Shown piece by piece: positions 11,477 through 19,502 of a stretch of 28,861 nucleotides of DNA. The position numbers and the translations under genes were made by a program. The notes under the pieces were generated by a model that was not told the origin of the DNA, made no database searches, and was given only the letters and a program-made list of their open reading frames with translations. The stretch is from the IMG/VR virus record IMGVR_UViG_3300037070_006643, positions 1 through 28,861 of that record. One strand, written 5' to 3'. Each line of letters opens with the position of its first letter. The stretch's first letter is position 1. The DNA is from a virus.

Positions 11477-12388
11477 ATGGAATGGCTGCATAACGCCAAC
11501 CCCTACACCGGGTTGGGAGGATCGGGCGGAAGCATTCCTGAGTTCGTCACCATCGACGACATTCCCGCTTCTGGATCCACCACCGTGTCTCTCGGGGTCG
11601 GCATGACCGGTCCGGTCGTCATCGATCTCGCAGGAGAGTCGCCGCACATCCTGGTGAACGCTCCGACCAATCTGGGCAAGTCGACTGTCGCTCGGTCGCT
11701 GGCCGCTCAGCGTATGGCTCAGGGCGATGTGGTCGTCGTTCTCGATCGCAAGATGCATTCTCATCGCTGGGCCCGTGGTCTTGAGCCGATGGCTCATTAC
11801 TTCGACACCGTTCCGGCGATCGGTGGTGCTCTCGTCAATCTGGGCGAGGAGCTGACTCGCCGGAATCAGATCGTCAAGGAGTGGGATCAGCCTGGCGATC
11901 CTCCGATCGGTCCCCGGATCATCGTGATCTTCGAGGAGACCAACGCCACGCTGACGCATCTCAAGAATCTCGACAAGCGTCAGGTTGCCGGTGGATACGG
12001 TGCGATGGACGCTTTCTCCGATCTGATCTTTATGGGTCGTGCGGTGAGGATGCACGTCATCGCGTTCGCCCAGCTGGCCAGCTACCGGTCTGGTCTGACC
12101 CCGGACATCATCGAGAACTTCGGCACGAGGGTGATGATCGGGTATTCGGACAAGGCGTGGAAGTGGCTTGCGGCTGACTGTGGCCGGTATCGGGTTGCTC
12201 CGGCTGGTGTCGGCCGTGGTGTTGTATGCCAGCTCGGTAAGGCTCGTGAGACTCAGCTGGTGTATCTCCCGGAGGAGTCGGCAGCGGAGTTCGTCACCTC
12301 TTCCATCCCCGCTCAGAGGGCCGCTCGTGCCCTTGTGGGGGGTCGTCAGAACCTCTCTCCGGTGTGGCGGGGAGCGATCGGTCGATGA
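11477..12388 (+). CDS. FtsK/TraB-like DNA-translocase ATPase
   Basis: The 303-residue P-loop ATPase is of the FtsK/HerA type. Walker A is APTNLGKS (62-69), with Ala in the first position and Asn-Leu where FtsK usually has Gly-Ser. VVVVLDRK follows as the next strand. Walker B is IIVIFEE (148-154), and FAQLAS near 195-205 resembles the conserved Gln region. The C-terminus is arginine-rich. It is short next to FtsK (over 700 residues) and lacks N-terminal membrane segments and a gamma domain. It resembles the mobile-element translocases of actinomycetes. A GAGGAG site precedes ATG 11477. Its role in phage DNA movement or segregation is inferred. Confidence 0.75.
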   Translation: MEWLHNANPYTGLGGSGGSIPEFVTIDDIPASGSTTVSLGVGMTGPVVIDLAGESPHILVNAPTNLGKSTVARSLAAQRMAQGDVVVVLDRKMHSHRWARGLEPMAHYFDTVPAIGGALVNLGEELTRRNQIVKEWDQPGDPPIGPRIIVIFEETNATLTHLKNLDKRQVAGGYGAMDAFSDLIFMGRAVRMHVIAFAQLASYRSGLTPDIIENFGTRVMIGYSDKAWKWLAADCGRYRVAPAGVGRGVVCQLGKARETQLVYLPEESAAEFVTSSIPAQRAARALVGGRQNLSPVWRGAIGR

Positions 12389-14710: not shown

Positions 14711-14775
14711 CGGGTGGTGTCCTTTCTGATATCACACCAGGCGCAGCCTTTGTCTTTGCAGTTTATGCAATTCAC
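14707..14775 (-). CDS. 22-residue CxxC zinc-knuckle peptide
   Basis: A GTG at 14775 overlaps the stop of the upstream gene (GTGA), and its own stop overlaps the start of the next gene (GTGA). AAAGGA lies upstream. The peptide has four Cys as C-x2-C-x4-C-x2-C within 14 residues, the spacing of a zinc knuckle. It may work as a mini zinc peptide or only couple translation of its neighbours. Double GTGA coupling and the regular Cys spacing argue that it is real. Confidence 0.5.
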   Translation of the reverse strand: MNCINCKDKGCAWCDIRKDTTR

Positions 14776-15371
14776 GGTGAATTCCTTTTTTCGCATTCGT
14801 CGATGTGTTCGGCCCAGACGAGGAGTTCGCCCAGCTCGATGGCAGCATACGTTCCCTGGGCCATGCGCTGGCCGCACCGCTTGCACCGGGGGTTGCGGGG
14901 GTCGGCCTCGAAGGTGAGCGGTTCCGGTGTTCCGATCTTGTTCCAGTCGAGCTCAAAACCCGGGGTCACCGCACCGGGGACAGGAGATGTGGCCGTCGAG
15001 GGCCCCGAGGAAGGGCGACGAGGGGCCACAGGCGACCTCTGGGGTGCTTTTGGGGCTCCGGTGCCACCGGCTTCCTGAACGGGGCTCTGAGGGGCTGTGT
15101 GGCCGTTTTTTGTACAACGGTGCTCTGGTACAACCATCGGCCTCTCCGAGGGTTCCCCCCTCAGTGCCCCCAGAACGGCGTGTGACGCGCTGCCGAACGA
15201 AGAGGGCCGCCCACCCAGGGCGTGCACTCGGTAGAGCGGCAGGGAGGCGATGAGGGCCCGTCCTGCTGTCTGGGCGTCCACAGGGGTCGGGTCACACCGG
15301 ACGACCACACCCATGAATCGATCGACCAGCAGTACGCCACCACACCCCTTGCAGGGTTCAACCTTGATCAT
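14772..15371 (-). CDS. Two-zinc-ribbon protein of the ATPase operon
   Basis: The 199-residue product starts MIKVEPCKGCGGVLLVDRF. The N-terminal domain has CKGC plus a later Cys (VVRCDPTP) and the C-terminal domain has CKRC, His and Cys (HIDEC). They are joined by a Pro/Ala/Ser-rich linker (about 100-145). Similar proteins occur in actinomycete mobile elements near replication genes. ATG 15371 has GGAAGG 6-7 nt upstream; a start at 15410 lacks one. The iteron array lies immediately upstream, between it and the ATPase gene. A DNA-binding accessory role is inferred. Confidence 0.65.
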   Translation of the reverse strand: MIKVEPCKGCGGVLLVDRFMGVVVRCDPTPVDAQTAGRALIASLPLYRVHALGGRPSSFGSASHAVLGALRGEPSERPMVVPEHRCTKNGHTAPQSPVQEAGGTGAPKAPQRSPVAPRRPSSGPSTATSPVPGAVTPGFELDWNKIGTPEPLTFEADPRNPRCKRCGQRMAQGTYAAIELGELLVWAEHIDECEKRNSP

Positions 15372-15401
15372 TTTCAACCTTCCATCGAGGCCTTCAAGAA
15401 C

Positions 15402-15581
15402 TGCGAACACTCTTAGGGCCTATTACATAGGCCCCTAAATGGTTGTTCGCATGTTCGCACTAAACTGTTCGCACTTGTTCGCACTATGTTCGCGCAGGTC
15501 AGGGATGTTCGCAGTTCTGTTCGCACTGTTCGCAAAGGCTGTTCGCAGAGGGGGGTGCGAACAAAGATCATCTGTTCGCAC
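15402..15581. repeat. Iteron-like array: twelve TGTTCGCA octamers
   Basis: The octamer occurs ten times in direct orientation, with the heptamer GTTCGCA starting at 15445, 15453, 15467, 15477, 15488 (last base G), 15507, 15519, 15528, 15541 and 15574. It occurs twice inverted (TGCGAACA at 15402 and 15556). Spacing is 8-19 nt over most of the array. Chance would give far less than one copy here. Position in the 227-nt gap behind the RepA/RecA-like ATPase gene fits a plasmid-style replication origin or a multi-site operator. Confidence 0.75.
15412..15438. repeat. AT-rich imperfect palindrome beside the iterons
   Basis: TTAGGGCCTAT pairs with ATAGGCCCCTAA around TAC, with a single bulged C. It sits at the edge of the octamer array. 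In an origin it could be the melting region; in RNA it would be a hairpin after the ATPase gene. Confidence 0.45.
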
Positions 15582-15598
15582 TTCGTCCCCCTCCGCTG

Positions 15599-16957
15599 TC
15601 ACTCGATTACACTCTGTGCACCCTCTCTGGCGGCTTTCTGATGGGCCATCCAGGCCCCCGCAGAGTGGATTCCGGACTGGCTGATGCGGTACTTGGGCGC
15701 CCCCGAGAAGTCCTTCTTCTCGACCATTCCGATGGCTGCGAGACGGTTCGCGTTGGACCGAATCCGGGCCTTGTCGTTCCTCGTTTCGGCTCCCATGAGG
15801 GCCGCCATGTCCGTGGTGGACATCCATGCCCCGTCGTCCGCCAGGTTGACCAGGAGAGGCCCCAGGCTGGGAGGGGGGAGCTGGGGGGCCACGACGTCAC
15901 GCGCGGCGCCGTCAGAGCCCGTGGAGCCGCCTTCGAACAGCTTCGGGTCGACACCCCATAGTTCAACGACGGGCGGAACGCCGTGGTTACGTCCGTCGAT
16001 CTTGAAGTCTCCCCGCCAGAACTGTCCGCCGTCACCGGAGGGGAGTGCGTCGGGCCGGACACCGCCCGGCTTGTCCTTGGCGACCTTCAGCCGAAGTTGA
16101 CCGCGTCCGCCCTTCACGAACGGGTTGACCGGTTCGGCGGTGTACGAGACGCCGTCGATGGCCGCTTTCTTGTGCTGGGAGCCGATAGCCCTTTCGCCCT
16201 TGTCCTGAGGGGTGTGGTCGACGATGACGACAGCCGGGGCGGATTCCAGCCGGGCGACCCTTTTCGGAAAGTCGTTGTACCAGGAGGCGACTTCGTTCTC
16301 ATTCCGTCCGTCGAGTCCGGCGACCGACATGGATTCGGTGACGGCGTCGATGACGATAATCGCGAGGTCGGCGATTTCGGAAAGGGCCTGATATCCGGCG
16401 TCGCCGAAGGCGGTTTCGGGTCGGAGGTAATGGAATCGCTTGACGATTTCTTCGCGGGTGAGGCCGAATACGTGCCGGAGCCGGTTGACGATGGCCTGTC
16501 CGCCGTCTTCGAAGTCGATCATCGCGGCGTGCCGTCCGGCTTTGATTTCCTGGGCGACGACGTGCAGCAGCACCATCGTTTTGCCGGATTCGGACGGTCC
16601 GTGGATTTCGTTGACCTTCCCCCGGTAGAAAACGCCGCCGCCGTTGGAGGTGTCACCGAGGTGGAAGGCGCCCACGGTGGGAAGCTCTTGTTCGGTGTCG
16701 AACAGCTCGTCGAGGTCGACGAACGCCCACGAGTTTTCGGCGCCGGAGCGTTCCCGTTCCAGTCGGTCGGCGACACGCACCGTCTCCCGGTACAGCAGCA
16801 TGTTCTCGGCGGACTGGAGGATGGCGGCGTCGCGTGCCAGCTTTTCCAGCTCGGCGAGGAACTTCAGCCCGTCGGGATCGTCGGGCAGGAACGAGATTTC
16901 GCAGGCCGTTTCGAGTTCTTCGGCTGTCAGGTGACGCGGCTGGAGAATGATCGGCAT
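15599..16957 (-). CDS. RepA/RecA-like ATPase with C-terminal winged helix
   Basis: The 452-residue product belongs to the AAA_25/RepA-like group. Walker A is GPSESGKT (120-127). DFEDG follows, then a Walker B-like IIVIDAVTES (200-209). The strand VVIVDHTPQDKGERAIGS (243-260) resembles the RepA hexameric helicase core of RSF1010-type plasmids. The last 110 residues contain a probable winged helix (MSTTDMAALMGAETRNDKAR), which could bind DNA. ATG 16957 overlaps the upstream stop (TAATG). The iteron array directly downstream suggests a role in replication initiation or helicase loading. Confidence 0.75.
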   Translation of the reverse strand: MPIILQPRHLTAEELETACEISFLPDDPDGLKFLAELEKLARDAAILQSAENMLLYRETVRVADRLERERSGAENSWAFVDLDELFDTEQELPTVGAFHLGDTSNGGGVFYRGKVNEIHGPSESGKTMVLLHVVAQEIKAGRHAAMIDFEDGGQAIVNRLRHVFGLTREEIVKRFHYLRPETAFGDAGYQALSEIADLAIIVIDAVTESMSVAGLDGRNENEVASWYNDFPKRVARLESAPAVVIVDHTPQDKGERAIGSQHKKAAIDGVSYTAEPVNPFVKGGRGQLRLKVAKDKPGGVRPDALPSGDGGQFWRGDFKIDGRNHGVPPVVELWGVDPKLFEGGSTGSDGAARDVVAPQLPPPSLGPLLVNLADDGAWMSTTDMAALMGAETRNDKARIRSNANRLAAIGMVEKKDFSGAPKYRISQSGIHSAGAWMAHQKAAREGAQSVIE

Positions 16958-17166
16958 TAGTCGCACCCCCGTCCGCACTCACCGCAGTACCTGCCGTACG
17001 AGTGCCAGACGGTCACTTCTGGTTCACCGAAGGGGCTTTCGGCGGTGATGTCGTCGATCAGGTGAGCCTCCCAGCGGGTGGCGTGCACGTCGCCGGAGTT
17101 CAGTACGAGGTCGCCGTGTTCTTTTTGGATCTTCTTGAGCTTCTCGATGGCCTCACTGATTTTCAT
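16957..17166 (-). CDS. Small protein with C-terminal Cys pairs
   Basis: The 69-residue product starts MKISEAIEKLKKIQKEHGDL, a helix. Two strands follow, then a Cys-rich end (YCGECGRGCD). The opening 'ISEAIekLkkiqkehGDl' is typical of small phage proteins of unknown function. ATG 17166 overlaps the stop of the HTH gene (ATGA), with GGAAGGTG 5 nt upstream. Confidence 0.65.
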   Translation of the reverse strand: MKISEAIEKLKKIQKEHGDLVLNSGDVHATRWEAHLIDDITAESPFGEPEVTVWHSYGRYCGECGRGCD

Positions 17167-17339
17167 CGGCGCACCTTCCGCTCTTCGATCCAGGCGCGAA
17201 CGTCCGCCCAGTCGTAACGTCGGGCGCCTTCGATTTTCACGTACGGCGGTCCGGCGCCTTGGGATGCCCATCGGTCGACGCTCTTGGGGTGGACGCCAAG
17301 GTATTCGGCTACTTGCTTTGCGGTGGCAAGCCCCTCCAC
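17163..17339 (-). CDS. Excisionase/MerR-like HTH DNA-binding protein
   Basis: The 58-residue product starts with GTG 17339, and a GGAGGT site lies 5 nt before it. LATAKQVAEYLGVHPKSVDR is a textbook helix-turn-helix of the HTH_17/AlpA/excisionase group. The wing follows (VKIEGARRYDWADVRAWIEE). Such proteins act as transcription factors or directionality factors. There is no integrase here, so regulation of this operon is the better guess. The promoter at 17385-17413 lies directly upstream. It is coupled to the next gene by ATGA. Confidence 0.75.
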   Translation of the reverse strand: MEGLATAKQVAEYLGVHPKSVDRWASQGAGPPYVKIEGARRYDWADVRAWIEERKVRR

Positions 17340-17370
17340 GGAACACCTCCTCTCTTTGGAGCAAGAAGTA

Positions 17371-19245: not shown

Positions 19246-19440
19246 TCAGCCCCGGTAGCCGCGACGCTCGAAGTACTCGGCGAGGGCGGTGCGGACCACG
19301 TCGGCTTCCGAGACTCCCTGGTCTGTGGCCACCTTTGTGACCAGGGCCTTTGCGGCCGCGGGGAGCTTTGTGACCATCTGTGCGTCGTGGATCTTGGTAC
19401 GCTTACCGCCGTTGGTGAGATCGGCCAGGGTGTTCGACAC
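19246..19440 (-). CDS. Ribbon-helix-helix (CopG-type) regulator
   Basis: The 64-residue product starts with GTG 19440, with an AGGAG site 6 nt upstream. KRTKIHDAQMVTKLPAAAKA provides the beta ribbon. Two helices follow: AKALVTKVATDQG and SEADVVRTALAEYFERRG. This is the CopG/Arc layout, and RHH dimers bind operator DNA. As first gene of the leftward operon, beside a divergent lysis cassette, it may repress its own promoter (19474-19502) and perhaps lysis. An ORF start at 19662 would run through the promoter and into the endolysin gene. Confidence 0.75.
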   Translation of the reverse strand: MSNTLADLTNGGKRTKIHDAQMVTKLPAAAKALVTKVATDQGVSEADVVRTALAEYFERRGYRG

Positions 19441-19473
19441 GGTAACTCCTAGGTAGTTCTTGTGGTGACACTC

Positions 19474-19502
19474 AGAGTATGCCATCAGGGAACACCTCTC
19501 AA
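19474..19502 (-). promoter_or_regulatory. Promoter of the leftward operon
   Basis: On the minus strand, TTGAGA (19502-19497) and TACTCT (19479-19474) are 17 nt apart. Transcription would start near 19467, giving a leader of about 27 nt to the GTG at 19440. The region also lies just upstream of the endolysin gene, so divergent control is likely. A plus-strand TAAGAT near 19515 could be the opposing -10 but lacks a clear -35. Confidence 0.65.

Follow-up and report, generated by a model that had tools for sequence, protein, structure and literature searches.

In phage lambda, the iterons lie inside the gene for O, an initiator without motor function. The C-terminal domains of SaPI Rep and SCCmec Cch2 bind iterons or repeats that are found just downstream of their own helicase genes, and SCCmec Cch has been compared with MCM (PMC7581432). 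The IncQ plasmid RSF1010 has a separate helicase (RepA), an AEP primase, hairpin priming sites (ssiA and ssiB) and iterons, the latter being read by RepC (PMC4234260, PMC4538821). In the crenarchaeal pRN1, ORF904 combines a primase-polymerase with an SF3 helicase and a C-terminal winged helix, and the origin is immediately downstream. This origin is a large stem-loop without iterons, and among relatives its sequence varies while the structure is kept (PMC4234260). The RepA prophage replicons of mycobacteriophages code for a RepA of 320-350 aa with an N-terminal HTH, and the authors found no iterons (PMC7157519).

We analyzed a stretch of 28,861 bp (the window), which is a whole IMG/VR record and probably a fragment. 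It contains an array of 12 octamers at the end of the gene for a RecA-fold ATPase (Table 1). The repeat cluster is very probably the site at which DNA replication of this actinobacterial phage begins. In layout, the locus is like SaPI Rep/ori and SCCmec Cch2 (an element-encoded helicase with downstream iterons), with iteron binding by the C-terminal domain being predicted for the window. The SaPI/SCC helicases belong to a different ATPase class (MCM/SF3-like AAA+), whereas the motor in the window is RecA-fold and is thus not a member of that helicase family. The RepA/RepB'/RepC origin of RSF1010 is similar in having a separate helicase, a primase, iterons and hairpins. There, however, a third protein (RepC) reads the iterons, while the helicase-like ATPase of the window appears to carry the reader domain itself. 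With pRN1 ORF904, the system shares the combination of primase-polymerase, helicase and C-terminal winged helix, a (here putative) origin at the gene end and a variable sequence of this site with kept structure, but pRN1 has an SF3 helicase and a stem-loop in place of iterons. The mycobacteriophage RepA systems are comparable as phage-encoded replicons: they belong to temperate phages of actinobacteria, and their origin is within the gene or adjoins it. They differ in the size of RepA, in the N-terminal position of its HTH and in having no recognised iterons. Lambda O/ori is comparable as an iteron origin tied to an initiator gene, but with the iterons within the gene and a non-motor initiator. 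In the literature searched (most subscription papers lie outside it), we found no description of downstream iterons or of an origin for this ATPase family.

Table 1. Coordinates of the features of the candidate origin region and of the neighbouring genes in the window.
Feature	Position	Strand	Basis
Two-zinc-ribbon protein, downstream of the array	14772..15371	-	Syntenic in Dagobah, L135, L136
Non-coding gap holding the array, 227 bp	15372..15598	none	Between ATPase stop and probable zinc-ribbon ATG
12-octamer iteron-like array, putative replication origin	15402..15580	none	Pattern count, shuffles, family comparison
Palindrome GGGCCTAT-TAC-ATAGGCCC	15416..15434	none	Separates outermost inverted iteron from the other iterons
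Inverted iteron pair around GAGGGGGG	15540..15563	none	Position matches iteron-built hairpins of relatives
RecA-fold ATPase, putative initiator helicase, 459 aa	15599..16978	-	Pfam RecA; C-terminal part of phrog_695
C-terminal winged-helix domain of ATPase, putative iteron reader	15614..15871	-	Residues 370-455, AlphaFold model, co-variation
Walker A motif GPSESGKT of ATPase	16577..16600	-	Sequence
Small ORF, MKISEAIEKLKK..., between HTH gene and ATPase	16957..17166	-	Syntenic small gene in Dagobah
Small excisionase-like DNA-binding protein (HTH_17), perhaps a regulator or an accessory factor	17172..17342	-	Syntenic in Dagobah, L136

The array consists of 11 exact copies of TGTTCGCA and one near copy. 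Nine exact copies are on the plus strand (at 15444, 15452, 15466, 15476, 15506, 15518, 15527, 15540 and 15573) and two are inverted (minus strand, at 15402 and 15556). The near copy, TGTTCGCG, which has a final mismatch, is at 15487 on the plus strand. Read in the same direction as the ATPase gene, the ten direct sites are TGCGAACA. No further exact copy of TGTTCGCA occurs in the remainder of the window. When the densest octamer per 200 bp was counted on both strands, 11 copies were observed, while 200 dinucleotide-preserving shuffles of the window gave only 2-4 copies of any octamer. The sequence-only reading, which had reported 12 copies (ten direct, two inverted, one with a final mismatch) and had stated that chance predicts essentially none, was thus exact in the site listing and right about chance. 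It had placed the array between the ATPase gene and the two-zinc-ribbon gene. This placement holds, but the start of the zinc-ribbon gene had to be corrected from GTG 15410 to a probable ATG 15371, as the homologues from L135 and L136 have their start or a re-start at the corresponding MIQIEPC/MIKVEPC. With the start at 15371, the entire array is non-coding. The gap is relatively A+T-rich (47-57% GC compared with ~63% for the genome), and a distinct A+T block was not seen. The palindrome beside the array is real, but its description as AT-rich does not fit well (10 of 19 positions are A or T). A change in GC skew had also been proposed as a check, and a convincing switch at the array was not found.

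The ATPase gene is assigned a GTG start (16978), with ATG 16954 as the alternative. The protein matches Pfam RecA (E 1.2e-8; class assignment Pfam RecA/AAA_25), and its motor aligns to positions 347-544 of phrog_695, "DNA polymerase/primase" (E 1.1e-17; the 10-sequence alignment covers the motor domain). A PDB sequence search returned RecA, RadB and KaiC. In a whole-protein fold search, the matches listed were RecA recombinases only, with poor global superposition, so that a helicase activity is suggested by the family context. In the AlphaFold model (56-sequence alignment, mean pLDDT 81), residues 370-455 form a separate winged helix (H-H-H-E-E-H, pLDDT ~75-96, mostly >90). The profile of the C-terminal region has weak matches to AdcR (E 0.003) and to the RPA32 subunit (E 0.0085). 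On the basis of the model, we are confident in predicting that the ATPase carries a C-terminal winged helix of the DNA-binding type. The 459-aa protein has no N-terminal primase-polymerase domain, and none is encoded elsewhere in the 28.9-kb record; the primase-polymerase gene of this phage is probably located beyond the end of the fragment. Elsewhere in the window, positions 11477-12388 code for an FtsK/SpoIIIE-like ATPase with 54% identity to a Dagobah gene. Proteins of this type are frequently found in plasmids and integrative elements of actinobacteria.

The nearest relatives (53-58% ATPase identity) lack TGTTCGCA and have differing arrays in the same place (TGAACCGGT, GTGAACCCA, CGGGAACCG). 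At the end of the ATPase gene, Dagobah has about ten copies of TGAACCGGT, L135 at least ten of GTGAACCCA and L136 about twelve of CGGGAACC(G). Conservation of TGTTCGCA among relatives was therefore rejected. The sequence-only reading had regarded an absence of the octamers from close relatives that keep the ATPase gene as evidence against an origin. The octamer is indeed absent, but every relative has an array of its own at this location, and the case for an origin is thereby strengthened. Arrays were also found for Microcystis phage MinS1 (ACCTCGTCCC), Verrucomicrobia phage P8625 (CTATCGGCA, first copy ~5 bp past the stop codon) and, at the 3' end of the ATPase gene, for two small plasmids, Kineococcus pKRAD02 (12.9 kb, GGGAACCACC) and Streptomyces griseoaurantiacus p-XQ-29-C (7.9 kb, ACCTGCCC). 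Among the other proteins tested from these two plasmids, none matched a Pfam replication initiator; one pKRAD02 protein has a weak O-like PHROGs match. The two plasmid homologues are consistent with autonomous replication from array and ATPase.

A primase-polymerase is encoded by a separate gene in Dagobah and in the IMG/VR record of L135. Many relatives have it as a fusion, in some more distant ones (such as L137) placed in front of the ATPase, and the MinS1 homologue has a DnaB N-terminal domain. These ties to primase-polymerase and DnaB-N point to replication. They bear on the view that the array is a cis site for recombination or packaging, served by the RecA/RadB-like protein or a terminase, rather than for replication initiation. 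RecA and RadB are the best solved relatives of the ATPase, and in unrelated phage contigs (L087, see below) the octamer flanks, and also lies within, a gene resembling that for the terminase small subunit. The fusions and the occurrence on small plasmids argue against this view, as does the location of the probable terminase genes of the window, which are ~7 kb away with no exact octamer nearby. We regard it as extremely unlikely.

The position of the array was analyzed across the family. A single-sequence ATPase query returned no relatives from the IMG/VR and GTDB contigs, so that an alignment query was needed. This query identified 489 relatives in IMG/VR, of which 80 were kept, and another 49 in GTDB genomes; Actinobacteria account for nearly all of them. 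A set of 142 loci was reduced to 78 representatives (<70% protein identity), which were scanned for repeats without a preselected motif. For 57 of the 78 (with 7 ties), the repeat cluster that scores highest over the entire locus lies between -350 and +450 bp relative to the ATPase stop, while 6.8 are expected by length (P ~7e-44 when the loci are taken as independent, which they are not fully). A stronger cluster elsewhere was found for 14 loci. The mean repeat score has its maximum exactly at the stop codon. Windows with at least six copies account for 18% near the stop; the corresponding values are 0.7% for other, mostly non-coding windows and 0.6% for coding ones. The same layout, with an array at the end of the helicase-like gene and a varying repeat, is shared by dozens of related elements, namely phages, prophages and plasmids. 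Such an array had been expected to be unusual for this phage type, but within this family of ATPases it is what is normally found. The 49 good arrays comprise 25 located entirely downstream, 13 that span the stop codon and 11 wholly inside the ATPase gene. Neighbouring repeats on the same strand are most often spaced by 10-11 bp (one helical turn).

Perfect hairpins with stems of at least 10 bp are 8-fold denser near the ATPase stop than elsewhere, and several of them consist of inverted iterons. The array hairpins of L007 (11428-11451), L219, L205, L240 and L231 have a CTTTAG- or CTTTAC-like loop. This may be a shared priming or termination signal; the shared loop is suggestive, with counts that are too small for more.

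Among the loci with a stronger cluster elsewhere is that of Streptomyces phage KimJongPhill (L134), with an array 3.5 kb upstream of the ATPase stop. Six copies of CAGAACGCTTA (2550-2630) do not follow the primase/helicase gene but precede it by ~1.2 kb, in an intergenic region between divergent genes. Its origin may have moved away from the end of the ATPase gene. L173 has eighteen near copies of CGCTGTCGC in 220 bp (at ~3830), 2.3 kb upstream of the ATPase stop, and these may be coding.

The family-wide positions also bear on a regulatory function of the array. It could be a multi-site operator for the zinc-ribbon gene or for the whole operon, with the HTH_17 protein or a ribbon-helix-helix protein as repressor. 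In favour of this, the zinc-ribbon start is immediately downstream of the array, and the operon also codes for small DNA-binding proteins. However, the array position tracks the ATPase stop codon across loci, and those arrays that are wholly inside the ATPase frame are far from the following promoter. In the window, no sigma-70-like promoter was found at the array (an E. coli-type consensus was the only one applied), and the exact octamer does not recur elsewhere, e.g., at the start of the operon. The repeat also co-varies with the ATPase C-terminus (see below). We regard an operator as improbable and as less likely than an iteron origin.

The repeat motifs differ between lineages. If the C-terminal domain of the ATPase is the reader, repeats should resemble each other where these domains do, beyond overall relatedness. 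Repeat similarity was found to correlate with C-terminal identity when core identity was held constant (partial r 0.315, 38 loci). The value is 0.375 for arrays beginning at most 65 bp before the stop (26 loci) and 0.418 for arrays wholly downstream of the gene (21 loci). By label permutation, p is 0.0005-0.001, these being correlations across related sequences. For core identity with the C-terminus held constant, the partial correlation is close to zero or negative. Since the wholly downstream subset still correlates, codons shared by array and domain are ruled out as a trivial cause. When the alignment columns were searched one by one for specificity residues, the result was noisy, and columns of the core scored as well. 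Based on these comparisons, we infer that the ATPase binds the iterons by its own C-terminal domain. Among the proteins scanned, none of the RepC type was noticed; the operon does code for the HTH_17 protein.

Proteins of the ribbon-helix-helix type bind to clustered short repeats in direct and inverted orientation. The array could thus be a partition or incompatibility site (parS-like) of a plasmid-like prophage, bound by such a protein or by another centromere-binding protein. Positions 19246-19500 of the window code for a possible ribbon-helix-helix (Arc/CopG-like) protein with weak matches, a candidate operon regulator or partition protein; its Arc-like relative in Dagobah is encoded by the first gene of the replication operon. 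In mycobacteriophages Miko and Rachaly, an extra parS of five direct repeats adjoins repA (PMC7157519). On the other side, a ParA homologue was not noticed beside the array, the co-variation over 38 loci is with the ATPase C-terminus, and the dense TGTTCGCA arrays of L047 and L079 (see below) adjoin primase-helicase genes. We therefore consider a parS-like site to be very improbable.

We return to the replication origin, which we consider highly likely, with iterons to which the neighbouring ATPase would bind by its C-terminal domain. The sequence-only reading had proposed an iteron origin as a candidate, and this is strongly supported by the position-conserved, sequence-variable array at the ATPase gene end across the family. 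It is also backed by the co-variation of repeat and C-terminus, by the small-plasmid homologues and by the primase-polymerase that is fused to or encoded with the ATPase. The array, its family-wide position, the hairpin enrichment, the C-terminal co-variation and the predicted winged-helix fold were established computationally, and we propose the following scheme for unwinding and priming. The RecA-fold ATPase would be its own initiator, with its C-terminal winged helix binding the octamers just past its own stop codon. Several copies of the ATPase would assemble cooperatively, side by side, on the iterons. The RecA-fold motor would then load itself and melt the relatively A+T-rich gap. Finally, a primase-polymerase would prime synthesis, perhaps at the hairpin of inverted iterons or at the adjacent palindrome.

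We lean toward the view that this is a large overlooked class of one-protein initiator-motors of phages, prophages and plasmids, which combine a RecA-fold ATPase with their own C-terminal winged-helix iteron reader and have the origin at the end of their own gene ("large" refers to the 489 viral matches in one scan). As part of the same proposal, reader and repeat would change together and give each element a private origin specificity. The data suggest that origin specificity is switched by joint change of winged-helix domain and repeats, which would explain the coexistence of related elements in one cell. If the array is the origin, this would locate the replication origin for a broad family of phages, prophages and small plasmids, from actinobacteria and some others, and a simple rule for finding it would be to inspect the end of the gene for the RecA-like helicase. 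For Streptomyces, Gordonia, Arthrobacter and relatives, a set of replicons would also become available that may be compatible with one another.

The octamer was also searched for by DNA pattern alone, in a protein-blind scan of IMG/VR for paired TGTTCGCA. Among the matches listed, two other contigs have at least ten clustered copies. In L079 (8848-9142), eleven copies in an A+T-rich gap start 18 bp past the stop of a gene coding for a Prim-Pol/DUF927/Cch-HTH protein. This protein resembles the SaPI/SCC class, and the array is a probable SaPI/SCC-like origin that shares the octamer of the window. In L047 (2571-2762), ten copies begin ~50 bp beyond the stop of a gene for a primase with an AAA_25 motor; this array is closed by a hairpin-like sequence, CCCCC-TTTAG-AGGGG. 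A triple-repeat scan matched 38 contigs. Here, TGTTCGCA was also found around terminase-small-subunit-like genes and inside coding sequences, one of which has 14 copies. As it occurs in such unrelated settings, the octamer alone is not diagnostic and was rejected as a marker. In L087 (1330-1572), TGTTCGCA/TGCGAACA occur with similar spacing at both ends of an HTH gene resembling that for the terminase small subunit. This setting is also seen in L019, L026, L040, L055, L080, L099, L116 and L122, with a conserved GCGCGC-rich stretch nearby. The octamer sites around this gene might be packaging (cos/pac) or autoregulation sites.
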